Below, piece after piece: positions 6,038-51,286 of a DNA stretch of 57,057 bases. The stretch's first letter is position 1; each line of letters opens with the position of its first letter. The notes below the pieces were generated by a model. The model saw only the letters and a program-made list of their open reading frames with translations. It made no database searches and was not told the origin of the DNA. A program made the position numbers and the translations under genes. Location of the stretch: positions 1 through 57,057 of IMG/VR virus record IMGVR_UViG_3300037502_003469; one strand, 5' to 3'. This DNA is from a virus.

Positions 6038-6038
6038 A

Positions 6039-16200: not shown

Positions 16201-16325
16201 TGATTAACAATGATTGAATCAATTCCTATGTCATAAGTTCCTGAAATTGTTATATTTTGTATATTCGTACTAAATGAAGGCTCAGAAGTAGGAAATGTAA
16301 TATTTGGTGTATTTAATGTACTCAT
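13206..16325 (-). CDS. Baseplate J-like wedge protein
   Basis: A 1039-residue protein of the gpJ/gp47/XkdT baseplate family. Residues 1-230 look like Ig/fibronectin-type beta domains (TISGTYDIGIDSIIVNQSSG). The J-type core follows: DSTLDVKPGTVLRDTFVDPA near 270, GEITVYTKRIPEKDSIVQAG, ALDSGDLGNVDAGKIVTAVS, the FGQDRESNSSLATRSLLAF loop and AGYFSNTIGIKGVTRAKII. The family joins baseplate wedges and triggers sheath contraction. It is much longer than simple gpJ proteins because of the N-terminal domains and a C-terminal extension (YVVVPASKMVKTDVTQVI). Its ATG overlaps the stop of the gp25-like gene, the usual partner. Confidence 0.87.
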   Translation of the reverse strand: MSTLNTPNITFPTSEPSFSTNIQNITISGTYDIGIDSIIVNQSSGGVTLNGFGGWSYSANLLEGENKFVVQSVKGSAFSGADFLAVIYDSNLITDFEDIVPNGIKIRQQRDSIKISVPSSQNADFIGFNFYGAEDIGGGSTGFTLLNQSPVNIVDYFEDNKTTLNEEVTQVGNIVTTVTQQKVERISYISYTHNRQTQALGIKPITEKNHYVVTSVFFDPINKQLVESSYSEELAAKPVVIDTQIKQIDQRTEGDFRVSIIDQILQADSTLDVKPGTVLRDTFVDPASTLFSRMFTILRFMNTAQSFSTLLSFDDPNNTGSSSPVLTTPEKNSLRQAILIPEDQASLVQDLIDAAFDKLASNVNKTRLPASQATGEITVYTKRIPEKDSIVQAGSICETLPDNINRVPSIRFEVLSGFTLRLSELSRYYNPTSQRYEFKLNIRALDSGDLGNVDAGKIVTAVSGFDSIFGIVNSVPTEFGQDRESNSSLATRSLLAFLSVDSGTEAGYFSNTIGIKGVTRAKIIKAKDPLMQRDLDPLREIHTYGKVDIYVQGIQNRTVTESFGFSYRKIQNELFYIQSRPFMQFRATNSDVSPEYPIFQVIEVRNVTKNNVYDLTNIAISNDGNLIDLDESLETNQLIGLSITDVIRVTYIYRKSDNVRFLTQPVEKILSVTGSKSGELSPENYTLIRQDDPLLLGRSTSARDEIRFNFANGIPNAQKEVIAGEPLVLVGIFPQALSQVDVDLTTLEVKDVSNVLYVLNLDYEIIPGDNRTPPQIKRTTNGNIPDGSIVYLSYEAGEIMTVEYQVNDILTEVQEVIDEMRHLTADVVIKAAQPTFIDMDITVVLESGADTIRVDRNIRTNIGNFLANTKLGQNIYQSDIISIMENTNGVDYVVVPASKMVKTDVTQVIREVLANPQFEIYQVGSVTSYRSIQKLASKTLENGGPENEFRGIFENDFLLNMKKTDVEVSNEAGAGYISADGTIIVSTRNGNNPNANKYTVTYLAIGETGAKDIILSSVEYGQIGTLNITYANNGLTISG

Positions 16326-25113: not shown

Positions 25114-26249
25114 TAATTTAACACCGCTACCGCTCTGTAGTATCCACTACTGACAGAACTAAGTACGTCTCCAGATGAATCTAAAATGTGATATAGTGAA
25201 TTATTTCCAAATTTTAGAGTCACGTTATCAAAATTCATTTTTATATTGACCCCATAGGTTTGACTTAAACCTGTGTCTGCATATTGAGTTAATAGTCTCG
25301 CACCTTCCATACTTTCTACTGAATTGAAATAAATTAAAAAATGATAGGTAAAAATATTTAGGTTCAAATTATGCACTATATTGACTGTTTGAGATGTTGA
25401 AGATGCTACCCATCCAGAATCATATAAAATTTTACTTTTAGATTCCAAAGCCTGTCTTAAATTACTATATTCATTAATTCTAACTCTAGGTAAATCCGAC
25501 AAATCATAAGCGTTTTGAAGATTAGAAGAAAATGTAATTATGTCAGAAAGTGGCGATCTTTTTTGAATATTTTCAACTACTAAATTTTCTGAATTAGTTT
25601 TGGAAAATAATGTTATTGAATCACCTGCTTGTAAATTTGTATTTCTAATATTTATTTGGTTTTGTTCATCTAAAGCAGACTCACTCAAATATTCTAAAAA
25701 TTGTATTCGATATTCTTCATTATTGTCATTTGTAAACTGTAAGGTTTCAGTATCTAACCCAAGTACAAGATCAGGTCTTAAATCATGAAATGTTTCAATC
25801 GTATATCCTGAACCTCTATTAACGATTAAAACACAGTATAGAGGCATATTATAAGATTTAGAGAAATTAAAAGAATTAAAATCAATGGTAGCAAGTTCTA
25901 TAGTTTTGACACTTTCATAAGCAACGCTTAATAAATCCTGTGTATTTATTGAAATAATGGCTATGACCCCTTCCCCAGAGGACATACTAGGTATTAAAAA
26001 ATCAGAAGAAATTTCATCTCCATCAATTACACCTGTACTAAAATCTAATGAAGTTATTAAATCTTGATATTCATTTAGAGAGCTTCTTGGGAATTTAGAT
26101 ATAATGTCTCCAACATAACCAAATTCAACCCTTGAATTTCTAACATATCTTGAAGGATGCAAATAAAAAAAAGAGCCTTCAGAATAACCTAAAAACCGTG
26201 TGTCAACTTTTGATGAATTTTGTCTATTCTGTATTTTTAAATTAGCCAT
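25113..26249 (-). CDS. Tail fibre-like paralogue 3
   Basis: A 378-residue protein beginning MANLKIQNRQNSSKV, paralogous to the two downstream genes. It shares the motif GDIISKFPRSS (compare SQVVSKFPRNS in the polyglycine protein), a mid-protein FLIPSMSSGEGV block and a C-terminal ILYDSGWVASS strand. No insert domain. Three tandem genes with one module imply duplication followed by divergence, common for proteins under host-range selection. Precise location on the virion is unknown. Confidence 0.68.
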   Translation of the reverse strand: MANLKIQNRQNSSKVDTRFLGYSEGSFFYLHPSRYVRNSRVEFGYVGDIISKFPRSSLNEYQDLITSLDFSTGVIDGDEISSDFLIPSMSSGEGVIAIISINTQDLLSVAYESVKTIELATIDFNSFNFSKSYNMPLYCVLIVNRGSGYTIETFHDLRPDLVLGLDTETLQFTNDNNEEYRIQFLEYLSESALDEQNQINIRNTNLQAGDSITLFSKTNSENLVVENIQKRSPLSDIITFSSNLQNAYDLSDLPRVRINEYSNLRQALESKSKILYDSGWVASSTSQTVNIVHNLNLNIFTYHFLIYFNSVESMEGARLLTQYADTGLSQTYGVNIKMNFDNVTLKFGNNSLYHILDSSGDVLSSVSSGYYRAVAVLN

Positions 26250-26728
26250 TATTTTTTACTCATATATTTTTTGAATTCACTTTTTAATTTTTTACGAAAA
26301 TCTTTTTTTAAATCTTCTATACCCTTTTCAAAAAACTTTGTTTTAGGAAGTCCGGGGTGAGTCCAACTTCCTTTTTTCCTCATGGATTTTTTACTAGCCC
26401 ATCTAAAAACAACCTCTCCAGTGTTCTTATCTTTAATAGGTATGGGACGGGTCGCCTTTTGCAAGTATTTCATTTTATGCTTTCTTACTCCATAGTTATG
26501 ATAGGAGCCGATAGCGTTTAAATGAAAAGTTATACTGCTTTTACCTATAGTAAAAGATACACTTTTTCTGATAGAATTACCGTTTTTACCGTAATTCTTT
26601 TGATGCTCTCGAATTTTTTTCAGCCCTGCCCTTCCTAAATTATATTTAAGACGGCGTGTCAGTAGTCTGTCTAACTTCTTTTTTAAGACAGATTTACTCA
26701 ATAAGGGTTTGATATAAACCTTTAGCAT
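26249..26728 (-). CDS. Basic virion protein, possibly HK97 gp10-like
   Basis: A 159-residue, very Lys/Arg-rich protein. I use ATG 26728; an in-frame TTG lies just before it. The middle (YHNYGVRKHKMKYLQ ... RPIPIKDKNTGEVVFRW ... GSWTHPGLPKTKFFEKG) resembles the HK97 gp10-type or minor tail completion family, which acts at the head-tail or tail-terminator interface. Its stop shares the last base of the next gene's start. It lies just downstream of the sheath terminator, in the fibre operon. Assignment is tentative. Confidence 0.55.
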   Translation of the reverse strand: MLKVYIKPLLSKSVLKKKLDRLLTRRLKYNLGRAGLKKIREHQKNYGKNGNSIRKSVSFTIGKSSITFHLNAIGSYHNYGVRKHKMKYLQKATRPIPIKDKNTGEVVFRWASKKSMRKKGSWTHPGLPKTKFFEKGIEDLKKDFRKKLKSEFKKYMSKK

Positions 26729-26773
26729 CAATACAACAAATTATTAGAAAATAAGTCTGAAATTTAAAAGGAA

Positions 26774-26808: not shown

Positions 26809-29562
26809 TTAGAGGCTAGTTCGGATAGTGTAGTTTACTTGAATCCAATTTAATGGGAAAACAGGAGAGTAAAACGCTACAACGTCTGCTACAGTAGGGT
26901 CACTCGCTCTAGGAGTAGCCTTGATTCCTGTATAGGCAGTTACAATTTCACCTTGAATTAGTGCTTTAAACATATTCGCTAAAGAAATCTCAATATCTGT
27001 TATGCGAGTAGGTAAGAATTTTTCTGCAATAAAAGGGTCAAGAATTGACCTTGTTTGTTGCTGAACATAATCTTTAATAAACACTATAGAAGGCTCTCTG
27101 GTAAGTACGTTGCTCATATCTGTAGTTACAGCCTGTCTAATTTGAATAGCTGCTTGATTTTCTGTAAGAACCGTTAAACCTGCCGTTGCAGATTGATTGG
27201 CTGAAACAGCATCAAGTTTTCTAAACAAGCGACGGAACCCTACCATACTCTTACGTGTTAGCGGAGTAGCAACATCGAAAGAAGGGTTACAAGCTAATCC
27301 TGCTAAAGCTGCTGCTAAAAAGCTTCCATCAACTGCGGTTTCAACTTCACGACCTAATGCGTCAGTTAAAGCTACGATAGCTCCGTCTGGATATACTCCT
27401 ATTAAACGCTCAGTTCTCAAAGCCTTTGAAAAGTCTTGAGCAGATTCAGGAGTAGTTCCGATTGCGTAACCAAAAACTCCTGTTCTTTCAAGTGCGTATC
27501 TTGTACTTGAAACTTTCTCAACATGCTTTTTCATGTATTGAATAACAGGTTTGCTTGTTGTCAAACAAACCATAATGTTTGGTCTTACGTCTCCATCCAT
27601 AGGGTTTTCTAATGAATCCATAGCTGCAAAATAATCAGAATCATTTGCCTGTAATCCGTCAGAACCCTTTTTAACTTGGACGAGAGCTACCGCAGGAGCA
27701 CCGTTAAGGAACGCTAAGTTACTTGCTAAAGTTAATCTGTTCTCAACATTTAATTCACCAAAGTTGCTTATAACATCTCTGAAATTTAAGTAAACATTTG
27801 GCTTGAAATCAGCTTTAGCATATTCAAGAGAAACGTAATAAGAATCTCCAATGGCAGGCTCACTTCCACCTTTGTTATAAGTATTAACAATAGCAGTATT
27901 TCCTACACCTACCCCAGTAGAATTGGAAACAATTAAGTTAATTCCGGGTATTGATTTTGTTGGATTTGAATCTGTTTTAAATGTTTGAGAACACTCAATC
28001 ATTAAAAAGTCACCAGACTGATAACTAAATGTCGAAGGACTTAAAACAGTAAATCGTAAACCTGTTTTTGAATCAATGTAAGTTTGATCTAAATAACCAG
28101 TACCGTTTGAACCAGAAGCTCCTAAAGATGATGTAACAGCATACGTATTACTATCCGTAAAAGTCAGAGTCACAGTCTCTTCAAGTGATGCTTTTGGTAT
28201 TGTTAAAGTATCTTCTACATCGCCCGGAAAACTGATACCTTCGATGCTAAAATTAGCACCTGCTACCATTGAACCAGTAATGTCGAAATTAGCATCAAAA
28301 AGTTGTCCAAAATTATCAGAAGATATTTCGTAATCTCCTGCGGTAGCACCAACAGAAGAAACTTTATTTGTGATTGTGAAAGAGTCGTCTGTTAAATTGT
28401 TGTAATAAAAAGACGCATATACTTTCATTCCTGTAGAAGGTGCATTTTTAAGAGTTACTGTTCTAGTTCCTCCTACAAGTTGTGCAACCGAAACAGGTCC
28501 AGCAGCTTTAGCAGAAGCTACTGAATTACCAACGTACACTTGGATTTTAGTAATATCGTCTGTTACTTTTGCTAAACCTGTACCATCTGTAGGAAAAAAC
28601 TCAAGTTGAAAAACCTTATTAGTCCCATTGGATGAGCCAGCACACTGTCTAAAAAAAGCACGATTATCTACTAGAATACCTTGGATTTGAGTATCGTCAA
28701 AAGCTTCACCTGATTCTAATTCACCTATTCCTACACTTACTGAGCTTCCCCATTGAATTTTATTTCCAGATTCTATAACGAAGTCAGAACCTAAAAAGTA
28801 ATCTTGTTTATTTGGGGTATTACCTACTGCATTTATTTTGCTTAAAGTAATGTCTTGTGGAAGGAAATCAAAAGTATCCTGCCAAGTGTTTGTATAGTAA
28901 GTTAAAAGAACTGTATCTTCTTCTTCAGGAGCACTTGAAAGAGTTACCAATCCAAGCTCACCATCAACAGAAGAAATTACTACAGATGAACCATTTACAG
29001 TAGCAGACAATCTTGAAGGGTCAGTTGTTGAAATCCCTCCGTTATTTCCAGAAACAATTCTAGGAAAATTAACTTTGAAAGTTTTATTCAAACCGTCTGC
29101 TTGTGAACTAACATCATCGTCTGTAATTTTTGTATCTTTTCGAGAAAAGAAATACGAAACTCTGACTGTTGAGCCAAGAGGAGGGATAGTTCCTAAAGTT
29201 ACTTGTCCCAATTCCCCATTAAGATTTATAATAGAAGTAGGCTCACCATCAACAGTTACGGAAATTGCATTTGGGTCATTTGTTACAAAAGCGTTTCCGT
29301 TTCCATCAACAACAGGGAAATGAACTACGTTAAAAGTTCTGTTAGTTCCTGTAAATTGATTCGATACGTCTTCACCAACCATTCTAATATCAGAAGTTGC
29401 AGAAGAACCTCTAATAATTTCAAAATTGGTTAGTTTTAAAGTTTCTGCCCCAACTCCAATAAAAACAGGTAATCTTAAACCTGCAATGATACTCGGAACT
29501 GAAGTATCTGTTAATGTCTGAACATAAACGCCCGGAGGGGCGTAAGTGCTAAAAATTGCCAT
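26809..29562 (-). CDS. Contractile tail sheath protein
   Basis: A 917-residue protein. The start MAIFSTYAPPGVYVQTLTDT is typical of sheath N-termini. The C-terminal ~250 residues fit the sheath domain: LTENQAAIQIRQAVTTDM, FIKDYVQQQTRSILDPFIAE, VTAYTGIKATPRASDPTV and the final VNYTIRTSL strand that links subunits. It is longer than T4 gp18 (about 660 residues). The excess includes three copies of a beta module at about 65-138, 150-224 and 307-388 (NRTF..V.FP, DP..I..TVDG, GS.V.VSY). It has a strong GGAGG ribosome site, a 90-bp leader and its own terminator, consistent with high expression. Confidence 0.92.
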   Translation of the reverse strand: MAIFSTYAPPGVYVQTLTDTSVPSIIAGLRLPVFIGVGAETLKLTNFEIIRGSSATSDIRMVGEDVSNQFTGTNRTFNVVHFPVVDGNGNAFVTNDPNAISVTVDGEPTSIINLNGELGQVTLGTIPPLGSTVRVSYFFSRKDTKITDDDVSSQADGLNKTFKVNFPRIVSGNNGGISTTDPSRLSATVNGSSVVISSVDGELGLVTLSSAPEEEDTVLLTYYTNTWQDTFDFLPQDITLSKINAVGNTPNKQDYFLGSDFVIESGNKIQWGSSVSVGIGELESGEAFDDTQIQGILVDNRAFFRQCAGSSNGTNKVFQLEFFPTDGTGLAKVTDDITKIQVYVGNSVASAKAAGPVSVAQLVGGTRTVTLKNAPSTGMKVYASFYYNNLTDDSFTITNKVSSVGATAGDYEISSDNFGQLFDANFDITGSMVAGANFSIEGISFPGDVEDTLTIPKASLEETVTLTFTDSNTYAVTSSLGASGSNGTGYLDQTYIDSKTGLRFTVLSPSTFSYQSGDFLMIECSQTFKTDSNPTKSIPGINLIVSNSTGVGVGNTAIVNTYNKGGSEPAIGDSYYVSLEYAKADFKPNVYLNFRDVISNFGELNVENRLTLASNLAFLNGAPAVALVQVKKGSDGLQANDSDYFAAMDSLENPMDGDVRPNIMVCLTTSKPVIQYMKKHVEKVSSTRYALERTGVFGYAIGTTPESAQDFSKALRTERLIGVYPDGAIVALTDALGREVETAVDGSFLAAALAGLACNPSFDVATPLTRKSMVGFRRLFRKLDAVSANQSATAGLTVLTENQAAIQIRQAVTTDMSNVLTREPSIVFIKDYVQQQTRSILDPFIAEKFLPTRITDIEISLANMFKALIQGEIVTAYTGIKATPRASDPTVADVVAFYSPVFPLNWIQVNYTIRTSL

Positions 29563-29652: not shown

Positions 29653-30060
29653 CTAAGGCTTTTCTTTTTTTTCTTGCTTTGAGAATTCCGAATAGAGAGT
29701 TTTTCGTTCTTCAATTCTCTCTTTATTTACTGTTTTATATTCATAGTTTATTTTTCCAGATTCATCTTTTTTTATCTCTGATTTAATTGCTTGATTTCCC
29801 GATTCTTTTCTTATTTTATCTTTTTGTTTTTTTCGATCATTAATATCTTCCCATCTCTTTTCTGCTTCTGCACCGATAAGTCTATCTACAGTATCTCTTG
29901 AAGTACCTGATCTCATAACATTAATAGGGCTAAAAACTCTCCTAGTATTTTCTATATTTGAGCATTTTGGACAATTTGACTGAGGTCCAGCTTCATCCAT
30001 TTTTTTAAATTCTTCAAAATGGTAATTACAATCCTCACAGTAATATTCATACGTTGGCAT
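29653..30060 (-). CDS. FmdB-type zinc ribbon protein
   Basis: A 135-residue protein. Residues 1-35 match the FmdB-type zinc ribbon: MPTYEYYCEDC, then CPKC, giving four Cys ligands at 8, 11, 30 and 33. The rest is a charged helical tail (AEAEKRWEDINDRKKQKDKI). FmdB ribbons are small regulatory or accessory zinc proteins in bacteria; phage copies are of unknown function. The position between the tail-completion-like gene and the sheath suggests a role in sheath expression or tail assembly, but this is inference. Confidence 0.75.
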   Translation of the reverse strand: MPTYEYYCEDCNYHFEEFKKMDEAGPQSNCPKCSNIENTRRVFSPINVMRSGTSRDTVDRLIGAEAEKRWEDINDRKKQKDKIRKESGNQAIKSEIKKDESGKINYEYKTVNKERIEERKTLYSEFSKQEKKEKP

Positions 30061-30070
30061 AATTAAATCC

Positions 30071-31411
30071 TCATCTCAAACTTTCTGTTTTAGGTATAAA
30101 GTCCACTTGGTATTTTTGTAAACTTTCCAATAATTCTATGTGAATGTCTAAAAATTTTATTTTTGGAAGGAGAGGAGCATAGAATCTCCAATCACTATTA
30201 AAATTAATATCTATGCCTGCCATGTAATACACAGTATCAGTGTTTTCATCATATAAATCTTCAGATTCCCCGTTCAAGGATACATTTGTTATCATTAAAC
30301 CCTGTGAATCAAATACAGGTTTCAAGTGACCAAAAATTTTAACAGCTAACAAATCTGCGATAATTTCTCTTTGAATAGGGTCACGGCTATATATATCCAT
30401 CGAAAGACTTGTTTCAAAATGCCCTCCATATTCTTGAGCAGCATCTTCCCTTTTATCAGTTACAATAACTACCTGTTTATCTCCTACTTCCACCCAATTA
30501 CTTATGGCTACAACAACTCCAGATAATGCCTGACACAAGGTTTGTTTTTGTATATCAACAGGTCCAATAGAATTACTTTGATACCGATAAAAAACCCGAT
30601 AATTAGCACCTTTGATTAAAGTTGTGCCATTAGTATCGTCAGGATTAATTAACCACGTAATCAACCCTGTATCCAAATTAACATTATAATGAATACCTTC
30701 TCGTAAAACGGTTCTATCATTTTCAAAAATTTCAAAAGTTTTTTGTCGTATAGGAAAATGAGGTAACTGATATGATATTTCATTACCTTTGGCTTCTTTT
30801 ATTACAATTTCATCAAAATTTAACAAAGTATCAATCATTATTTTGTTTGGTTCAACAACTTCAAAATAATAAAGCCCTGCTTGAACTAAATTTCTTCTAT
30901 GGTATTCCACAACAAGTTTGCTTCCTATCGCAGGAGCATAATTCAACACTACTTGTTTTTCTTTTAAGTCTATTACTGGTATAGGATTTCCATTTACATA
31001 AGCCAAAATCTGTTTTGGGCTTGTAGCTAAATCAAGATTACCCTCACCCGAAGTAGGTTGAAAATTTAGTTGAAAAATTCTTTTACTACCGTCAATTTGA
31101 GAAGATAGATCATCCATTTCGTATTTTGTTATGTTTGCAGAATCTTCTCTAACCCAGTCAAAAATCAAACTTTTTTTACCTTTCAGAGAAGCTGTAAAAC
31201 AATGACTCACTACTGTACCGATAAAGTTATCGGAAGATATGGGCATGGAGTTGCCTGAAACATTTTTCACAACAACTCCATACTGAGGTCTTTCATCATA
31301 CGGAAATTTATCAGAAACTTTAAATTTAGAAAGTCCGGGGTATTCTGAGAAAATACCTTTCAGTTCTTCGACAACACGTCTTTTAATTTCTCTTGAGAGA
31401 AAATAATACAC
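30071..31411 (-). CDS. Tail-completion/neck-type structural protein, GTG start
   Basis: A 446-residue protein starting at GTG 31411 behind GGGG. The N-terminal region is helical (SREIKRRVVEELKGIFSEY). Residues about 100-172 are one copy of the beta module present three times in the sheath (SSQIDGSKRIFQLNFQPTSG ... GSKLVVEYHRR). The C-terminal half is mixed alpha/beta (GHFETSLSMDIYSRDPIQRE). The neighbours are an actin-like ATPase and the sheath, so a tail-terminator, neck or sheath-capping role is plausible; no defined family recognised. Confidence 0.62.
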   Translation of the reverse strand: MYYFLSREIKRRVVEELKGIFSEYPGLSKFKVSDKFPYDERPQYGVVVKNVSGNSMPISSDNFIGTVVSHCFTASLKGKKSLIFDWVREDSANITKYEMDDLSSQIDGSKRIFQLNFQPTSGEGNLDLATSPKQILAYVNGNPIPVIDLKEKQVVLNYAPAIGSKLVVEYHRRNLVQAGLYYFEVVEPNKIMIDTLLNFDEIVIKEAKGNEISYQLPHFPIRQKTFEIFENDRTVLREGIHYNVNLDTGLITWLINPDDTNGTTLIKGANYRVFYRYQSNSIGPVDIQKQTLCQALSGVVVAISNWVEVGDKQVVIVTDKREDAAQEYGGHFETSLSMDIYSRDPIQREIIADLLAVKIFGHLKPVFDSQGLMITNVSLNGESEDLYDENTDTVYYMAGIDINFNSDWRFYAPLLPKIKFLDIHIELLESLQKYQVDFIPKTESLR

Positions 31412-31420
31412 TTTTACCCC

Positions 31421-32467
31421 TTACTCGTGGTTTTGTGCCATGATTAAAAGCCCTCTGGAAACTGCAAATAGAGGATTCTTGGCGTGTCTTATGTCTGTTA
31501 CTGAAAAAGGGAAACCTTTTAATTTTTGAACTTCTTGTCTTACAACTTCCATAAAGTTGATTGGTAGAGAAGTTCCTCCACCAATAACTACAGGAACAGA
31601 TTCAGGGAGATCAATTTGAGCCATTACGTTCTGACTTTTAATTTTTTCTACAAAGTTAGTTAAAGCATAACGAATTAAGGTTTTATAATAAATTGCGATT
31701 GCTTCCTGCTCTCGACCTTTAGGATTTAATAAATCAACACCTTTTTCTTTTACAGCACAAATTTTTGCAGGAGATAGACCTGTTGCTTTGGCGGCTGACT
31801 CATCCACATAATCACCACTTCTAGCAACCGCCATGGTAATTAAAGGAATGGATTTATATGAAAGAGAAGCGTTTACCATTCCTGCACCAAATGACATTGC
31901 AAAACCACTGAACATTGTGTCAGCACACTCTGAATATACAATTGCTTGAGCTTCATTCGCAGGGCAGGCTTGCCAACCTAAAGATTCAACCATTTGACCC
32001 ATAATCATTTCATGATAAGTAACGTCCATATCAGCATCAATGGGAGCAGCAGGCACAGAATAATAACAAGGCGTTCCTGCCACAGGAGCTTCACCAAGAA
32101 CATGTCTAAACAAATGTTTGATTACTTTTTGAGCTTCAATTTCTTGCGGAGAAATTGTTCCTTTACTGAGAGGTCTTCTTAAAGGTTGATTAAATATATT
32201 TGCAATATTTGCAGCATCATCTCCGACAATAATAACTCTATCACCTTCTTCAATGTATGAAATATTTGATAGCTTCAACATCTGTTTTTGCTCTACAGCT
32301 AGTGACACGAAAGCATCCCTAACCCGTAAACTTTTAACTTCATTATTATTTTCATCCAAATGAGAAGCAATGATTGTTCCTGTTCCTATATCTAAACCTT
32401 TACAAAGGTATTTAGGGTCTTTTTGTTTCGGACTTGCTGGTATTTCTTGGTTTTCTAACTGTTCCAT
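31421..32467 (-). CDS. Actin/HSP70-superfamily ATPase
   Basis: A 348-residue protein with the nucleotide-binding motifs of the actin/MreB/FtsA superfamily: phosphate-1 DIGTG (26-30), connect-1-like NEAQAI (171-176), phosphate-2 SFGAGMVN (192-199), a GDYVDES segment (218-224) and the adenosine motif IGGGTSL (295-301). The length suits an actin-fold core preceded by about 20 linker residues. It should bind and hydrolyse ATP and may form filaments or act as a chaperone. Phage actins are known for DNA segregation or positioning, but this gene lies within the tail operon, between a coiled-coil protein and tail-completion gene, 9 bases from each. Confidence 0.8.
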   Translation of the reverse strand: MEQLENQEIPASPKQKDPKYLCKGLDIGTGTIIASHLDENNNEVKSLRVRDAFVSLAVEQKQMLKLSNISYIEEGDRVIIVGDDAANIANIFNQPLRRPLSKGTISPQEIEAQKVIKHLFRHVLGEAPVAGTPCYYSVPAAPIDADMDVTYHEMIMGQMVESLGWQACPANEAQAIVYSECADTMFSGFAMSFGAGMVNASLSYKSIPLITMAVARSGDYVDESAAKATGLSPAKICAVKEKGVDLLNPKGREQEAIAIYYKTLIRYALTNFVEKIKSQNVMAQIDLPESVPVVIGGGTSLPINFMEVVRQEVQKLKGFPFSVTDIRHAKNPLFAVSRGLLIMAQNHE

Positions 32468-32476
32468 TTATATCTC

Positions 32477-33301
32477 CTATTTTTTCATTTGATTTTTTAA
32501 TTTTTTCAATGCTGCTAACGCATCATCTACGCTTCCTGACTGTGTTTGTTGAGTTACAATTTTAGAATCTTTAACATTCAAATCCTCTACTTTAGGAACA
32601 TATTTTTCTTCAAAGTCTTGTATTCTAAAACCCTCACTTTGATTTTCAATTCTTCCTGTTCCTGAGTTATTATAGATAACTTGCGTCTTTGTGTTTTCTA
32701 AAGTCTTCTGAATTTGTGAAAGAAGCTCTACAGTTTTTTGAGATTCTTGAGGCTGTTGAGACAAACTTAAACTTCTAATTTCTTGTAAAAGAGCAGTAAA
32801 TAATTGAGAGTTATCTGTTTTGTTGATCTGCTCAACTATTTGTTTTTGCTGTTCTTGTAAGGCAGACAAAGCTTGATAAAACGGAGACATATCAATCTTA
32901 ACATCTTCTTTTTTAACTTCTTTGTTTTCCTTAACTTCTTGTTTTAAAGAATCATAAGATTGCTGTACACTTCGTAAAAATATAGCCTGCTTTTCTAAAA
33001 CCTGATTTAAAACGGCAGGGTCGATTCCAGAGACTTCTTTTACTATTTCTCTACTAGATGGATTAACAATTTCATTTTGACGCTGAACATTATTTTTTTC
33101 CGTCATTTTTTTTGCTTCAAGAGTATTGTAAAGCAGAGCTTTTCTGTCGGCAGAAATCACCCACTTATTTTTCAAAGCAAATTTAAAATTTGGGTTAGCC
33201 GTTTGCCAGTCAGCCAAATTTACGGTTTCTCCGAAATTTAACCTAATTCCTAAGCCATCAATTACAACGTAGGGTTTTACATTACCTTTAAATAGTGCCA
33301 T
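32477..33301 (-). CDS. Coiled-coil structural or assembly protein
   Basis: A 274-residue protein. Residues 1-60 are a small globular part (YVVIDGLGIRLNFGETVNL, KFALKNKWVIS). From about 95 to 215 heptad-like helices predominate (DPAVLNQVLEKQAIFLRSVQ, LSALQEQQKQIVEQINKTDN). The C-terminus is helical and charged (DDALAALKKLKNQMKK). It is the first minus-strand gene after the strand switch at 33302, so a promoter should lie just upstream. An assembly partner for the adjacent ATPase or a neck component are possible; no family recognised. Confidence 0.65.
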   Translation of the reverse strand: MALFKGNVKPYVVIDGLGIRLNFGETVNLADWQTANPNFKFALKNKWVISADRKALLYNTLEAKKMTEKNNVQRQNEIVNPSSREIVKEVSGIDPAVLNQVLEKQAIFLRSVQQSYDSLKQEVKENKEVKKEDVKIDMSPFYQALSALQEQQKQIVEQINKTDNSQLFTALLQEIRSLSLSQQPQESQKTVELLSQIQKTLENTKTQVIYNNSGTGRIENQSEGFRIQDFEEKYVPKVEDLNVKDSKIVTQQTQSGSVDDALAALKKLKNQMKK

Positions 33302-33367
33302 TCTTAACTCATTTGGGAAAAGTTACATATAATACATTGTAGTTGTAAATTATTGAAAGGAGTCATT
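33302..33367. promoter_or_regulatory. Divergent promoter region
   Basis: A 66-bp gap between diverging genes. It contains TATAAT on the plus strand within CATATAATAC, whose reverse reads TATTAT, so one AT box could serve either direction. No clear -35 box. AAAGGAG precedes the plus-strand ATG 33368. Confidence 0.35.
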
Positions 33368-33667
33368 ATGCAAGAATTAACAAAAGAAGTTAAAGTTTTG
33401 GTTATAGATAACCTCGGTATCGTTATGGGAAATATCACCGTAAAAGATGACATGTACATTGTCACAAACCCGTTATTTTTAAGCCCAAGTCAAAACGGTA
33501 TCGCTATGCAAAATAACCCTCTGTTTGAAGATGAATTAACAGTATCTAAGCAATACGTAGTAGCTGTATCGAATCCTAAAATTGATGTAATTGAAAAATA
33601 TGAAGCTTACAGAACCCAAAAATCCACAGGGATTATCATGCCTCCTAAGTCTAAACTTCAACTTTAA
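33368..33667 (+). CDS. Hypothetical small beta-rich protein
   Basis: A 99-residue protein starting at ATG 33368 with AAAGGAG upstream (preferred over a TTG at 33353 that precedes the ribosome site). The sequence alternates short strands (VKVLVIDNLGIVMGNITVKD, KQYVVAVSNPKIDVI), suggesting a small beta-barrel; an Sm-like fold is conceivable but weakly supported. First gene of the plus-strand island, 8 bases before the next. Confidence 0.68.
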   Translation: MQELTKEVKVLVIDNLGIVMGNITVKDDMYIVTNPLFLSPSQNGIAMQNNPLFEDELTVSKQYVVAVSNPKIDVIEKYEAYRTQKSTGIIMPPKSKLQL

Positions 33668-33675
33668 GGTTTTTT

Positions 33676-34131
33676 ATGTCTTTTAATTTATATGAAATGT
33701 TTCAAAAATATGGAGTAGCTCACTTACAGCCTTGGGAGGCTTACAGACTAGAGAATAACCTGTTAGTCAAAATTGACCCCTCTTCTGACACAAAATACCC
33801 TTTTAACGTAGGCGATAATTTTGAATTTGTTTCATACAATATGTACAAAGCAGGGCATCCTTTATTTGTTCACAATCTTTCATCAAGCGTTATGGAGTCA
33901 TTTCAAATTAATGTGAAAAATTTTGATGAAAATAGTAATCCAGATTACATTTTATACAAATCTAAAATTGTTGAAAAAGTGGATTTAATTAAAGTTATTG
34001 ATTTAGATAATCCAAAATTTGATTTTGATTTGTTAGCCTTTACTTTGAATGGTCTTCCATTATTTTCAGAATTAATAGCTTTTATGTTTAAAGAAATTTC
34101 AACTGCAAAAAACAGAGGTTTTCATGCTTAA
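33676..34131 (+). CDS. Hypothetical protein
   Basis: A 151-residue soluble protein (MSFNLYEMFQKYGVAHLQPW) of unknown function. It is mixed alpha/beta and slightly acidic, with no membrane segment or known motif. Its stop overlaps the start of the exonuclease gene by 8 bases, so both are probably coupled and cotranscribed with the preceding small gene. Confidence 0.65.
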   Translation: MSFNLYEMFQKYGVAHLQPWEAYRLENNLLVKIDPSSDTKYPFNVGDNFEFVSYNMYKAGHPLFVHNLSSSVMESFQINVKNFDENSNPDYILYKSKIVEKVDLIKVIDLDNPKFDFDLLAFTLNGLPLFSELIAFMFKEISTAKNRGFHA

Positions 34132-34750
34132 TAAAAAGTATTATTTTTTCCATGACACTGAAACAGGTGGATTAGACAACGGATTACATAAATTATTAGA
34201 ACTAGGTTCCGCTATCTATGACGAGGATGGTAACGAATTAGAACATTTTCAAGAGTTTTTAAATCCTCTTGAGGAAAATTATAAAAAAGTCACACTATAT
34301 GCTTTAAAAGTTAATAACTGTTTTTCACGAAGAGGTGACATGCCTTATGAAGATAGTCTTTCAGTAGCTAGAAGATATGCTGAGTGGTGTGTTTCAGTTG
34401 TAAAAAAATATAACCCTGTTTTAGTGGGACAAAATATTAATTTTGATGTGGGTTTCACAAATGAGTTTATGAGCGAGCACGGATTTCTTGGCTGGGGCGA
34501 ACTCTTTTCTTATCACCGTGTAGATACGTGTGTTCTAGGTTATCAACTAATAGATTCTGGTATAGTACAGGCAAAAAGCCCCTCCCTAAAAAATTTGAGC
34601 GATTTTTTTCAAATCGAAAATCCTTGTGCTCACGGAGCATTAGAGGATGCGAGGACTACCGCAAAAGTTTACTTTAGGATGAAGAACATTTTCAAAGAGT
34701 TTAAGCAGTTAAAAGATGAAAAAAGTATCAATAATAACTCCAACTTATAA
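34124..34750 (+). CDS. DEDDh-type 3'-5' exonuclease (DnaQ/RNase T-like)
   Basis: A 208-residue protein with all three exonuclease motifs: ExoI HDTETGG (catalytic D11, E13), ExoII GQNINFDVGF (D108) and ExoIII HGALEDA (H170, D175). The histidine defines the DEDDh subclass, which degrades single-stranded DNA or RNA 3' to 5' with two metal ions. It is a stand-alone domain without polymerase, like RNase T, exonuclease X or DnaQ epsilon. It overlaps the downstream glycosyltransferase gene by 35 bases, unusually long for this window. The role in the phage (nucleotide recycling, RNA processing, repair) is unknown. Confidence 0.85.
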   Translation: MLNKKYYFFHDTETGGLDNGLHKLLELGSAIYDEDGNELEHFQEFLNPLEENYKKVTLYALKVNNCFSRRGDMPYEDSLSVARRYAEWCVSVVKKYNPVLVGQNINFDVGFTNEFMSEHGFLGWGELFSYHRVDTCVLGYQLIDSGIVQAKSPSLKNLSDFFQIENPCAHGALEDARTTAKVYFRMKNIFKEFKQLKDEKSINNNSNL

Positions 34751-44274: not shown

Positions 44275-45099
44275 ATGAAATGCCACCAAAGAATTATTAG
44301 AGAGCAAAGGTTAGAAACTGATTTAGCTAATCTAAATTTTGACTCTAGTAATTTAAAAGCCTCAGACTTTTCTTTGAATCAAGAAATTTTAAATTCAGAA
44401 ATTATAGATTTTATAAAAACTTATGAATGGTTAGGAAATATAGGAACAAAACCTAAATGGGTTTTTACAGCAAGGTATAATAATTTACTCGGCGGAGTGG
44501 TTTTAATAAATGAGCCTAGCTCATATTCAAATGTTTTGGGTAAAGATACCAAAAAATATGAGGCTTTAATTCAGCGAGGTGCTTGTGCTTCGTGGACTCC
44601 TAAAAATCTCGGAAGCAGGTTAATCATGTTCTCGTGTAAAGAAATGGTTAAAATCACACCTAAAAGAGCTTTCGTAGCTTATGCTGATTCTTCCGCCAAT
44701 GAAGTTGGAACAATATACCAAGCTTGCAATTTTGATTATCTAGGGTGTAATTTTGGAACAAAAAACATGCTGATTCACCCTGACTTTAAAAAAGGTGCTC
44801 CATTTTCAAAGCAGTCTCTTTATCGAACATCCACTTTAAAAAAATGGGCGAAAGAGAATAATGTCAAAATAGAACCGAGTTGGATAAAAGAAAACGGTTT
44901 TAAAGACCTTTCTAAAATACCGCAAGATGTAAATAAAGCATGGAAAAATTGGATTAACAATATCGTAAAAGAATCAGAAAAAATACAAATATCACCTAAA
45001 GGAAAATACATTCTTGTTTTAGGCTCTAGTAAAAAAGATTCTTTGAAATTAAACAGCCTTAAAAATTATACACCTTTACCTTACCCTAAAAGATCATGA
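44275..45099 (+). CDS. Mom-like GNAT-type DNA modification candidate
   Basis: A 274-residue protein. Key blocks recall the Mom/GNAT type: KWVFTARYNNLLGGVVLINE, RGACASWTPKNLGSRLIMF and FVAYADSSANEVGTIYQACNF. In phage Mu, Mom modifies adenine in phage DNA to block restriction. Whether this protein modifies DNA is not shown here. It opens a compact plus-strand triple (4-base ATGA overlap with the next gene) with a zinc-ribbon protein and a PD-(D/E)XK nuclease. The context could mean a homing element or a modification/restriction-evasion pair. Confidence 0.65.
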   Translation: MKCHQRIIREQRLETDLANLNFDSSNLKASDFSLNQEILNSEIIDFIKTYEWLGNIGTKPKWVFTARYNNLLGGVVLINEPSSYSNVLGKDTKKYEALIQRGACASWTPKNLGSRLIMFSCKEMVKITPKRAFVAYADSSANEVGTIYQACNFDYLGCNFGTKNMLIHPDFKKGAPFSKQSLYRTSTLKKWAKENNVKIEPSWIKENGFKDLSKIPQDVNKAWKNWINNIVKESEKIQISPKGKYILVLGSSKKDSLKLNSLKNYTPLPYPKRS

Positions 45100-45587
45100 A
45101 AAGAAAAAGTCTAATCGGAGAAAGGTTTGGCTCAATGATCGTGATAGACCAATTAGAAAACGATAAGAAAAACCGTAATTGGCTTGTTATGTGTGACTGT
45201 GGAACTATCTGTGAAAAAAATACGTATTTGTTAAAATATACAAAATCTTGTGGATGTTTAAGAACAAAAGTTTTATCTAGCCGAAGAAAAATTCAAGAGA
45301 ATCAAAAATTTGGTTTTTTAACTACACAAAAAATATCTCGCAGAGGTTATTGGACATGCTTATGTTTTTGCGGAACTGTAGTTGATGTGAGAAGCCAGTA
45401 TCTTATTAAAGGGACCACTAAAAGCTGTGGTTGTATGTCTTCTCAACTTAGAAATGATTCATACTATAAGAATAAGCCCACAAATATAAATATTAAAAAG
45501 CTTAAATACATCCAAGAAAAGTATTACCCGAATTTAACTGTTGAAGAGGTGCTATTAAAGCTTAAAGGAGGTCTTGATGTCTCCTGA
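45096..45587 (+). CDS. Double zinc-ribbon DNA-binding protein
   Basis: A 163-residue protein with two similar modules. Each has a GxRFG/GFL start, a C.CG pair and a SCGC motif: LVMCDCGTICEKN...KSCGCLR, and CLCFCGTVVDVR...KSCGCMS. This arrangement is typical of the small zinc/AP2-type DNA-binding modules in phage homing endonucleases. It overlaps both neighbours, so it is probably cotranslated with the downstream nuclease and could supply DNA recognition. Confidence 0.72.
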   Translation: MKRKSLIGERFGSMIVIDQLENDKKNRNWLVMCDCGTICEKNTYLLKYTKSCGCLRTKVLSSRRKIQENQKFGFLTTQKISRRGYWTCLCFCGTVVDVRSQYLIKGTTKSCGCMSSQLRNDSYYKNKPTNINIKKLKYIQEKYYPNLTVEEVLLKLKGGLDVS

Positions 45588-47409
45588 AGAAACCCAAATC
45601 TTACTTAATTATGCACATGGAAAGATTTCCAAAGAAGAAGCTATGATTGTATTAGGTTACAAGAAAGCAGCCTTTAACTCCCGTATGCGTTCTTTAGGAT
45701 TTAGTTCTGAAAGCCACTACTTTCCTCGAACTTCTTTTAAACCCCTTATTCCAAAAAATGATAAAGAATACTGGGAAAATATTCATGATGATTACAAGTC
45801 AGGTGAAAGCATTGAATCTATTTCTTCTAAACTCGGTATCAAGCCTAATACTATAAAAGACAGATTTAATCTTTTTAACCTAGAGATACGCACGGAATCC
45901 GAAAATAGAAAGTTAGCAATTGAAAAAATGCGATCTACTACAAAGAAATTGTATGGAGTTGAATACGCTCAACAATCAAATGAAATTAAAAAAGCTACTC
46001 AGATAACAGTAAAAGAAAAATATGGTGTCGATAATGTCGCTCAATCCGTAGATTCAAGATTTAAAATTTCTCAAAGTGTTTCTGCTACATCTGAAGAGGC
46101 TCTTGTAAAAAGAAAAGAGACAAACCTATGTCGCTATGGTTTTAATTTTGCTCAACAAGACCCTGAAGTAAAACAGAAAATATTAAACACAAATATTGAA
46201 AGATATGGAACTGCTCACGCAGCATCTTCAACTTCAATTCGTTCAAAAATTAAAAATACCAATAAAGCTCGGTATGGAAGTGAGTCACCTCTTTCAAATC
46301 AAGAAGTTATACAAAAAAGAGTCGCTACCGTTACTGATAAGAAATATGCAGAGGTGTTAAAGACTCTTGATTTTTTTAATTATGTTTTACTCGACGAATA
46401 CAGAGGAATATTTACCAAAGACGGTTTTACTAAAGGTTACAAGCAATACAAAATAAAACATTTAGATTGCGGATTAGAATTTTATGATGACCTTTATTTG
46501 ACTCCAAGGTGTCGAAAATGCTTTCCTCTTGTAGGTAATAAAAGAGGACAACTTGAAATAGTATTAGCTTCATATATTGAGTCAATTGGATTCAATGTTA
46601 AGTGTAATACTAAAGACGTTATTAAAAACCCATCAACAGGTAAATGGTTTGAGATAGATATTTATATTGAAGATAAAAAATTAGCTTTTGAAATTGATAG
46701 CCTATACCACCACAGCACCCACTCTTTACAATGGGGTAAGCCTGTTGAAAAAAACTACCACTTAAATAAAACACAAGCCGCAACCAAGGAAGGGATAAGG
46801 TTAATTCATCTTTGGGAAGACTGGAGTCTTTTAAAAATACAATCAGTTATTAAATCAGAGTTAGGAATATTAGATAAGAAAAACGCTAGGTCATTAAAGA
46901 TAAAAGAAACGGACTGTTCTAAGTTTTTTGATGAAACACATGTTTATGGTAAAGCTCAAGCAATAGCTCAATTTGCCTTAGTGAATGAAAAAGATGAAAT
47001 ACAATGTGCAATGAGTTTTCGTAATCATCCAGAAGGATTAGAGATAAGTAGGTTCTCTTCTCAATTAGGAACATCGGTTAGAGGCGGTTTTTCAAGGCTT
47101 TTAAAACACGCTATGAAGACTCTTAAATGGCATACAATAATTTCATACTGCGATAGAGACTTATCTCCTGTAGCAGAAAACACAGTGTATTTTAAAAACG
47201 GGTTTGAGTTAGTAGAAGATACAGGACCGAGATTATTCTACACAAATTTTCGCAGACGTTGGTCAAGAGAAGCATTTCAAAAACATAAAATTAAATCATT
47301 TTTTCCAGAATCATTTAATAGCAATTTAACCGCAGATCAAATTCTATCGTCTAAAGGAATTTATTCAATATGGAATTCTGGAAATTGGAAATTTAAAATC
47401 ACAAAATAA
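45577..47409 (+). CDS. Homing-type endonuclease, PD-(D/E)XK core with C-terminal GNAT-like domain
   Basis: I use ATG 45577, placed right after AAAGGAGG; a TTG at 45574 is less likely. Residues 1-110 contain helix-turn-helix-like parts. Residues about 110-270 hold five repeats with a YG motif (LYGVEYAQQS, KYGVDNVAQS, RYGFNFAQQD, RYGTAHAASS, RYGSESPLSN) seen in phage homing nucleases. The nuclease core follows: FEIDIYIEDKKLAFEIDSLY, then YHLNKTQAATKEGIRLIHLW (PD-(D/E)XK, Vsr-like). The C-terminal part (FALVNEKDEIQCAMSFRNH, ISYCDRDLSPVAENTVYFKN) looks related to the Mom/GNAT-like protein two genes back. It likely cleaves a capsid-neck target to spread. Confidence 0.8.
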   Translation: MSPEETQILLNYAHGKISKEEAMIVLGYKKAAFNSRMRSLGFSSESHYFPRTSFKPLIPKNDKEYWENIHDDYKSGESIESISSKLGIKPNTIKDRFNLFNLEIRTESENRKLAIEKMRSTTKKLYGVEYAQQSNEIKKATQITVKEKYGVDNVAQSVDSRFKISQSVSATSEEALVKRKETNLCRYGFNFAQQDPEVKQKILNTNIERYGTAHAASSTSIRSKIKNTNKARYGSESPLSNQEVIQKRVATVTDKKYAEVLKTLDFFNYVLLDEYRGIFTKDGFTKGYKQYKIKHLDCGLEFYDDLYLTPRCRKCFPLVGNKRGQLEIVLASYIESIGFNVKCNTKDVIKNPSTGKWFEIDIYIEDKKLAFEIDSLYHHSTHSLQWGKPVEKNYHLNKTQAATKEGIRLIHLWEDWSLLKIQSVIKSELGILDKKNARSLKIKETDCSKFFDETHVYGKAQAIAQFALVNEKDEIQCAMSFRNHPEGLEISRFSSQLGTSVRGGFSRLLKHAMKTLKWHTIISYCDRDLSPVAENTVYFKNGFELVEDTGPRLFYTNFRRRWSREAFQKHKIKSFFPESFNSNLTADQILSSKGIYSIWNSGNWKFKITK

Positions 47410-47458: not shown

Positions 47459-48328
47459 TTATCGAGTAAGAACAAGTCTTGAAAGACCGGCAGGGTTATG
47501 AGCACCAATTCCGATATTTTCAAAGATTGAGAAACCGATAGTTCTTGCTTTCGGATCATCCGCAGAAAGAACAGTAAGTTCAGTTCTTACAGGAATACGT
47601 CCAAACATTTCTGCTTCACAGCAAGTATAAACGTAGTTTACTGGAACACGACGAGAAACAAGAATTTGAGCACCCCAAAGGTATGCAAGAAGACCTGTTT
47701 TAAGTAATGTTTGCTGAGTTTCGATGTCGAGAACGTCGCGACCCCATTTACGAATATCTGTATAGTCTTTAGCGTTTGCGAAAATTTTAGCAACACGAAG
47801 ATCGTGACGCTCAACGTCTGCAAAAGAGTCAGCCATAACAGAAGCAGTTAGAGGAGCTACAACTGGAATATCAGGGTTAGTGATACCATCGTCAGTAGCC
47901 GCACCTGCGATTGCGTTCATGATTTCAAATACACGACCATCTTCTTCAGCTTGAATTTCAGCTTTAGCAAGGTCTTGAGCACGTTCGATTAGATCGAAGC
48001 GACGCTCCTTGATCTGCGTCAGAGGAATTTCTGGGTTAGAAGCAATCTCGAAAAGAGGGAAAATAACACGCTTAGGCTTTTGGATAGCAAGAATGTTTTC
48101 ACCTTCTTCACCGATAATATAGGCAGTAGCCTTTGGGTCTTTATCGTAGATTGGTAGTGCTCCATCTGGTAATGCTTCAACTAGGAATGTTTTACGTCCA
48201 ATTGAAGTGTAATCACGACGGAAACGAAGTGGTTGCACCATAGAGGCTGCTAATTTAGCTCTACCTGCTGCGGTTTTAATCAGTTCGCTGATTACTTTTT
48301 GTTTTGTTGCGTTATCTGCTGGTTTCAT
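47459..48328 (-). CDS. Major capsid protein (HK97-fold type)
   Basis: A 289-residue protein. The start (residues 16-45, with AAGRAKLAASMVQPLRF) and the block GRKTFLVEALPDGALPIYDK match a large family of phage major capsid proteins with the HK97 fold. Other segments: PLFEIASNPEIPLTQIKERR, WGRDVLDIETQQTLL and the C-terminal RTIGFSIFENIGIGAHNPAG. It is flanked by scaffold/decoration genes upstream and a strong terminator downstream. A 5' hairpin and clear GGAG ribosome site agree with high expression. The short N-terminus may be trimmed by the prohead protease; no cut site is certain. Confidence 0.82.
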   Translation of the reverse strand: MKPADNATKQKVISELIKTAAGRAKLAASMVQPLRFRRDYTSIGRKTFLVEALPDGALPIYDKDPKATAYIIGEEGENILAIQKPKRVIFPLFEIASNPEIPLTQIKERRFDLIERAQDLAKAEIQAEEDGRVFEIMNAIAGAATDDGITNPDIPVVAPLTASVMADSFADVERHDLRVAKIFANAKDYTDIRKWGRDVLDIETQQTLLKTGLLAYLWGAQILVSRRVPVNYVYTCCEAEMFGRIPVRTELTVLSADDPKARTIGFSIFENIGIGAHNPAGLSRLVLTR

Positions 48329-51055: not shown

Positions 51056-51286
51056 TTATAGCCTTCTATGATGAATTTTCTTCCTTCTATTTTTCAAAAA
51101 AGTCTTAAACTTTTTCCTATAGTGCTTCATTCTACGTTTTATCTCAGATTTATTTCTGCGATAATACTTTCGGCTTTTAGTTTTTCTAGGACCACGTAAT
51201 TTACGCTGTCTTTTAAATCTAGGTTTATACGCTATCCGCTCTAAACGGACTTCTAATTCAGCGATTATCGTCCTTAAATTTTTCAC
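51056..51286 (-). CDS. Protamine-like basic protein with capsid-targeting-like leader
   Basis: A 76-residue protein starting at GTG 51286. The first ~18 residues (KNLRTIIAELEVRLERIA) are a helical leader like those of other small proteins here. The remainder is almost pure Arg/Lys/aromatic (KPRFKRQRKLRGPRKTKS, RRNKSEIKRRMKHYRKK), a composition expected of a DNA-condensing protein. It overlaps the C-terminus of the prohead protease gene by 29 bases and precedes the scaffold-like gene. The best guess is an internal head protein packed with DNA and trimmed by the protease; not proven. Confidence 0.65.
   Translation of the reverse strand: MKNLRTIIAELEVRLERIAYKPRFKRQRKLRGPRKTKSRKYYRRNKSEIKRRMKHYRKKFKTFLKNRRKKIHHRRL

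Follow-up and report, generated by a model that had tools for sequence, protein, structure and literature searches.

A gene standing among the virion-assembly genes of an uncultured virus encodes a volactin-family protein modelled with an actin fold, and the coiled-coil protein encoded directly upstream of it ends in a short tail that recurs in proteins encoded beside the volactins of archaea and some bacteria. The window, by which we mean the whole stretch of DNA analysed here (57,057 nucleotides, IMG/VR record IMGVR_UViG_3300037502_003469), is probably a fragment of a larger genome. A 99% identical actin gene is present on a 356-kb contig (L005), so the source is most likely a huge phage; the carriers of phage volactin are very large, uncultured bacterial viruses. 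On balance we lean towards an explanation in which a volactin filament would be coupled to virion cargo by a swapped adaptor, the filament, its binding and its cargo each being a prediction. Phage cytoskeletal filaments with adaptors are known, and the new and unexpected element is an adaptor tail common to phages and archaea. Together with the volactin identity and a Ser substitution in the active site, this tail goes beyond an earlier sequence-only reading of the DNA, which had proposed an actin-like ATPase encoded inside a tail operon.

Volactin family membership and fold

The 348-aa open reading frame at 31421-32467 (minus strand) starts with an ATG preceded by TAGGAGATATAA, has a ribosome-binding site, TAGGAGATATAAATGG, and is separated from each neighbour by 9 bases, as the sequence-only reading had described. 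Assignment of the product to the actin superfamily, also proposed there, is borne out by profile and model alike. The Pfam match is PF25216 (Volactin; E=3.3e-70, 237.6 bits against a cut-off of 35), with residues 23-344 aligned to profile positions 3-321 of 321, that is, over the full length. The AlphaFold2 model (pLDDT 93.3, pTM 0.90) has an actin fold, and its best structural match is the MamK filament (Z 29.0 over 294 residues, 21% identity); MreB also matches (Z 26.4, about 13-17% identity), and BeeR and crenactin appeared among the top PDB matches on a second look. The full-length profile match and the actin-fold model both speak against a tubulin fold of the PhuZ type. When PF25216 was run on 14 named genomes as a control, three responded (E. 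coli, T. maritima and H. volcanii), one of them above the cut-off, presumably H. volcanii. Comparison with the H. volcanii protein HVO_2015 was made at the family level through PF25216 rather than through the HVO_2015 sequence. A search of a viral structure library with the model returned no close relative, Hsp70 being the commonest named match within the best 20. In PHROG searches the window actin gave weak matches only, led by a partition protein (E 0.02), and the actin of another phage (L010) fell into no family.

Active-site motifs

The sequence-only reading had found all nucleotide-binding motifs present, which holds for the phosphate-1 Asp, the catalytic Glu and the adenosine-loop GG (Table 1). 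The exception is the phosphate-2 motif: in a profile alignment to E. coli MreB, Ser192 falls on the phosphate-2 Asp, so that the window actin shares the fold of MamK and MreB but carries Ser where MreB has Asp. In the same alignment E172 is paired with a Glu that we take to be the catalytic one, and D26, which lies outside it, is presumably the phosphate-1 Asp by its motif. S192, G194, G196 and N199 are invariant in 63/63 aligned phage, archaeal and bacterial members, a set biased towards the Ser by the pattern used in the scans that supplied it. Loss of catalytic residues relative to ParM or MreB had been named beforehand as a finding that would tell against the protein; the departure concerns phosphate-2 only, and it is family-wide. 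Since the same Ser also occurs in the motif of 80/80 genome loci (the best 80 of 297, from a set biased towards Ser by a scan pattern that contained it, in the IMG/VR and genome scans alike), it can be read as a family trait, and as such it is alone no argument against polymerisation. With Asp replaced by Ser, hydrolysis may be slow or different.

Linkage to virion-assembly genes

A tie between the actin-like protein and virion-assembly genes is strongly supported. In the window, the genes for the tail sheath, baseplate wedge, major head protein and head maturation protease share its strand (Table 1), which puts the gene in a morphogenesis region and agrees with its earlier placement in a tail operon.

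Table 1. Features of the window discussed in the text
Feature	Position	Strand	Evidence
Volactin-family actin-like protein, 348 aa	31421..32467	-	PF25216 E=3.3e-70; pLDDT 93.3; MamK Z 29; ribosome-binding site
Phosphate-1 motif D26-I-G-T29	32381..32392	-	D26, G28, T29 invariant in 63/63
Catalytic Glu E172	31952..31954	-	Invariant 63/63; aligned to a Glu of E. coli MreB
Phosphate-2 motif S192-F-G-A-G-M-V-N199, Ser replacing canonical Asp	31871..31894	-	E. coli MreB alignment
Adenosine-loop G297-G298	31574..31579	-	Invariant 63/63; aligned to GGG of MreB
Proposed adaptor, 274 aa: N-terminal domain, coiled coil, low-confidence linker, C-terminal helix	32477..33301	-	38-homologue alignment; model
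Adaptor N-terminal domain, residues 1-53	33143..33301	-	pLDDT about 95
C-terminal adaptor tail SVDDALAALKKLKNQMKK, residues 257-274, helix 258-273	32480..32533	-	
Conserved 446-aa neighbour, possibly a tail terminator	30071..31411	-	C-terminal profile match in 64/82 loci
FmdB-type zinc-ribbon protein, position conserved	29653..30060	-	PF09723 1.7e-12; 64/82 loci
Tail sheath protein	26809..29562	-	phrog_2839 E=5e-35; C-terminal profile in 58/82 loci
160-aa protein, weak neck/tail-completion match	26249..26731	-	phrog_5 E=0.26; phrog_2819 (unknown function) 2.6e-4
Baseplate wedge	13206-16325	same strand as actin	
Major head protein	47459-48328	same strand as actin	
Head maturation protease	51258-53099	same strand as actin	

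Across 82 actin-anchored phage loci the common order is the 160-aa neck-like gene, the coiled-coil gene, the actin gene, the 446-aa gene (usually directly downstream of the actin), the zinc-ribbon gene and the sheath gene; the 160-aa gene stands upstream of the adaptor in many other phages and after the sheath in the window. The IMG/VR loci anchored on the actin come from the best 80 of 489 stretches. Counting the loci in which a sheath was seen or the DNA runs on for at least 9 kb downstream, 77 in all, a sheath lies downstream on the same strand in 58 and is absent from the stretch covered in 19. An invariable location in a replication region of homologous phages, raised in the sequence-only reading as the opposing case, is therefore not what these loci display. 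When loci were anchored on the sheath instead (best 80 of 350, found with a profile itself built from sheaths adjoining actins, in a set that shares contigs with the first and, like it, contains near copies), the actin was present in 47 of the 48 viral loci that extend at least 3 kb upstream, against 1 of the 32 that extend less far. The single one of the 48 without actin, L210, carries an ORF of 86 aa in which the adaptor head is recognised (E 0.004) but the tail is missing; no other such ORF occurs in either set, and this correlated absence is one case on a partial contig. In four contigs the C-terminal domain of the sheath is about 12-25 kb from the actin, two of these having it on the opposite strand; the domain was not found in 7 of the 27 contigs searched whole, six of those seven being shorter than 210 kb.

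Domain-restricted profiles were used for these counts because the first neighbourhood labels cross-hit between the sheath (26809-29562) and the 446-aa protein (30071-31411), whose full-length profiles match each other, apparently via a beta-rich domain repeated in both. The 446-aa protein has a single PHROG match better than 0.1 (phrog_11431, 7e-6, residues 90-177), which sits in the part that cross-hits the sheath profile and leaves the earlier label of a tail-completion-like gene without support. Elsewhere in the window, a homing-endonuclease-like gene (45574-47409; phrog_3339, 5.5e-81) adjoins the major head protein gene, two glycosyltransferase-like genes are recognised by PHROG matches at 4559-8375, and a Mom-like DNA modification protein is encoded at 44275-45099 (phrog_1384, 7.5e-17).

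A candidate adaptor encoded upstream of the actin

In the AlphaFold2 model of the 274-aa coiled-coil neighbour, the head (residues 1-53) is predicted with confidence and residues 258-273 form a C-terminal helix; the linker has helical stretches but low confidence. Its counterparts in other phages diverge (11-36% identity to that of the window) yet share the N-terminal domain and the C-terminal tail, for which the consensus is roughly V-x-D-A-x-x-A-L-[KR]-x-L-[KR]-K, after P-x-F-I-P-S. A 15-column tail matrix built from 24 phage tails matched the C-terminus of a protein encoded upstream of the actin in 71 of 82 phage loci, a count that includes the training loci. The other 7,437 ORFs of these loci, a background that includes spurious frames, gave no score of 20 or more at any position and none of 14 or more within the 30 C-terminal residues. 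Profiles built from 38 of the scored phage proteins recover six of the 11 loci that the matrix missed and find the tail in 77/82 loci and the head in 76/82. The five loci without the tail are four that are cut off upstream and LR756511, a divergent phage of 595 kb that has the actin without adaptor tail or sheath. In the 71 matrix loci the adaptor and actin genes are at most 300 bases apart in 39 and 385-2,520 bases apart, with other genes between, in 32. The tail matrix detected no actin fused to an adaptor-type tail (best scores below 10).

For the head, no Pfam family was common to more than three of the 38 homologues, and the best Foldseek matches were ribosomal protein L9 and YqbF at E 0.2-0.3; structural matches on a second look were likewise weak (best Z 4.3; YqbF 3.7), and the head was given no fold on this basis. 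By a hydropathy count, the 71 phage adaptors have at most one membrane-like segment each, two of them a borderline one.

The adaptor tail recurs beside cellular volactins

Tails resembling those of the phages were noticed by eye in archaea before any profile existed, and the matrix and profile were then built from phage tails alone. Run on 79 genome loci, leaving out the phage-like L084, the phage-only tail profile matched 41 ORFs at E<=0.1, and 41/41 lie within 3 kb of a volactin gene on its strand, against a background (again with spurious frames) of 1,482 near same-strand ORFs and 6,968 others; both E<=0.1 and 3 kb were picked after earlier tail-profile results had been inspected. At looser cut-offs the profile finds 46 near and 1 far (E<=1), and 52 near and 6 far (E<=5). 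The p-value of this test, 6e-32, is inflated by redundant lineages: because most of the 41 matches are haloarchaeal and the cut-offs were set afterwards, they represent few independent events. With L084 included, 42 of 80 genome loci have a tail match at E<=0.1 and 38 have none.

Among the matches are the gene that precedes volactin in haloarchaea, whose product often bears the tail twice, a gene in Anaerolineae (L119, E 0.03) and a gene following a second volactin in four Omnitrophota loci (L086, L089, L090, L157). Partners in Archaeoglobi and several bacteria match weakly, and the resemblance in Thermoplasmatales, Magnetococcales and Neomarinimicrobiota was seen mainly by eye. Pfam assigns the haloarchaeal (L094) and Archaeoglobi (L109) partners to DUF7139, but not the Thermoplasmatales partner (L099) or the bacterial partners scanned; the tail matches in other genomes are chiefly DUF7139, a haloarchaeal membrane protein. 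In the genome loci, the hydropathy count gives at least three membrane-like segments for the products of 54 of the 74 genes that lie upstream of volactin. The adaptor-head profile, run on the 80 genome loci, found no cellular gene below E=1, only the phage-like L084; phage and cellular partners therefore appear to share the tail alone.

The DUF7139 genes beside the haloarchaeal and Archaeoglobi volactins (L094:8943-9878 and L109:9248-9997) encode candidate membrane anchors; no paper on DUF7139 was found in the open literature, preprints being outside the scope of that search. In Omnitrophota, L086 (9164-13121) and similar loci (L088-L091, L157) have two consecutive volactin-family genes. The second volactin of L086 has a long N-terminal extension (PF25216, 245 bits), and the tail-bearing gene after the pair gives a weak match in L091.

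Proposed mechanism and its alternatives

Huge phages share a volactin-type actin with archaea and some bacteria, and its origin is probably cellular. During infection the phage actin would most probably bind ATP and assemble into dynamic filaments. Its dedicated adaptor would be the coiled-coil product of the gene directly upstream, with the C-terminal helix (VDDALAALKKLKK) docking on the filament and the folded N-terminal domain and coiled coil holding cargo. Haloarchaeal DUF7139, a membrane protein whose tail is of the same kind, would tether volactin to the membrane. In the phage partner a soluble, phage-specific head takes the place of the DUF7139 membrane part, which, given the shared tail, suggests that its cargo is a different one. 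Since neck-like and sheath genes adjoin the pair, the likeliest cargo is a part of the virion, be it neck, tail or capsid, and the filament's task in assembly would be to collect, position or transport such parts. More tentatively, and with rather less confidence than doubt, we suggest that uncultured huge phages run an actin cargo system in which archaeal-type filaments would catch necks, tails or capsids through an adaptor helix serving as a general volactin-binding signal, common to the haloarchaeal membrane anchors.

The sequence-only reading had taken the gene's placement to suggest an assembly chaperone, a virion component or transport of tails and capsids, without preferring one of the three. 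The tie to virion-assembly genes (58/77 and 47/48) sustains the premise. What was found for the adaptor makes a filament that has a cargo adaptor more likely than a chaperone acting alone, and the shared tail would bear, indirectly, on the filament side of the adaptor only. The 32477-33301 product, which that reading had singled out for an interaction test, is on this evidence the right candidate partner. Insertions of passenger genes (morons) are common in phages, and the actin gene might sit among tail genes by chance; given that 47 of the 48 sheath loci that reach 3 kb or more upstream carry the actin, and that the phage actins fall in one clade and are mostly 41-48% identical to that of the window, such an accident is very improbable, and the linkage counts led us to reject it. 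The protein could also serve virion assembly as a factor or component that forms no cytoskeletal filaments, for example as a nucleotide-driven chaperone or clamp that acts on neck or sheath and has the adaptor as its docking partner. Its position among head and tail genes would suit this role, as would the phosphate-2 Ser of 63/63 aligned members and the existence of actin-fold chaperones such as Hsp70, the commonest name in the best 20 viral-library matches. We nevertheless regard it as unlikely, for the closest family makes dynamic filaments in vivo (accessible text of PMC10869688), proteins encoded beside cellular volactins carry the same tail, a filament subunit (MamK) is the top structural match, and the sheath is unseen downstream in 19/77 loci, whereas the adaptor tail is found in 77/82.

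A DNA-positioning system like AlpAC or ParMRC, in which the adaptor head would bind phage DNA and the filament would move or anchor the genome, receives a low probability from us. According to the accessible text of PMC4446434, AlpA of the Corynebacterium prophage CGP3 binds DNA, AlpC is a DNA-positioning actin and the alpAC genes are early. As in that pair, a phage actin here has an adaptor gene directly before it, and the candidate adaptor at 32477-33301 adjoins the actin at 9 bases, as in a ParMRC or AlpAC cassette; the head also weakly resembles the N-terminal domain of ribosomal protein L9. However, the L9 match is weak (E 0.2), no repeat array was found in 31000-34300 of the window, only 51 bases precede the ORF divergent from the adaptor-actin pair, and the pair is located with structural genes. 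The likeness to AlpC-AlpA noted here is one of gene layout.

Relation to known filament systems

A filament with a virion-cargo adaptor, the explanation we favour, can be set beside what is described for cells and for other phages. According to the accessible text of PMC10869688, H. volcanii volactin has a role in cell shape, and its filaments are dynamic and contact the membrane at their tips; an adjoining membrane protein bearing the shared tail would explain this tip anchoring. The window actin belongs to the same family (HVO_2015, PF25216) over its whole length (237.6 bits) and is 35-38% identical to the haloarchaeal volactins of the loci kept, which have the same S-F-G-A-G-M-x-N motif and the same kind of neighbour tail. 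The difference lies in the surroundings, since the phage gene stands among virion genes next to a soluble coiled-coil protein, whereas the haloarchaeal neighbour is the membrane protein DUF7139. PhuZ, a phage-encoded filament along which capsids move in nucleus-forming jumbo phages (accessible part of PMC13282480), is a tubulin, in contrast to the actin of the volactin phages, and offers a possible functional parallel only. Tubulin was not found in 27/27 volactin contigs, which leaves room for an actin in a PhuZ-like role.

Neither a phage volactin-adaptor system nor the volactin family in phages was found described in the open literature searched, from which preprints were excluded. If the proposal is true, this is an actin system of virion assembly, unlike the PhuZ tubulin and the DNA-positioning AlpC as these are presented in the accessible portions of their reports. 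One plug would then fit exchangeable sockets in phage and cell, which would make the system the actin equivalent of capsid transport by PhuZ; the tail signal would also account for the attachment of archaeal volactin, a recently described cell-shape actin, to the membrane. The shared tail thus amounts to a concrete prediction of what volactin filaments bind at the membrane, which can be tested in Haloferax without any phage.

Distribution and phylogeny

Phage volactin is widespread among uncultured phages, with 489 stretches confirmed in a profile scan of IMG/VR, the best 80 of which gave 79 loci. Near copies are present in the phage set, and 56 of 82 actins remain at 90% identity. The contigs reach 619 kb, and each of the 27 searched whole (54-619 kb) has a single copy. 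Against 50,697 phage records, tblastn with three queries matched two, both metagenomic. Among species genomes 297 stretches were confirmed, and the best 80 that were kept come mostly from haloarchaea and Archaeoglobaceae, and also from Omnitrophota and other bacteria.

In a tree of 79 rows, unrooted and built from the volactin family without outgroup actins, the phage sequences form one clade (support 99/93) next to archaeal and bacterial members. Of the 53 rows labelled phage, 52 belong to it, as does L085; the LR756511 actin falls outside on a long branch. In this unrooted tree a move of the gene from cells to phages seems likely. L085 (126-1142) is on a 9-kb contig labelled Thermoplasmata archaeon, which may be viral. 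In another huge phage (L220:1373-3646), the actin gene is split by an intein-like insert just before a conserved GDWID motif.
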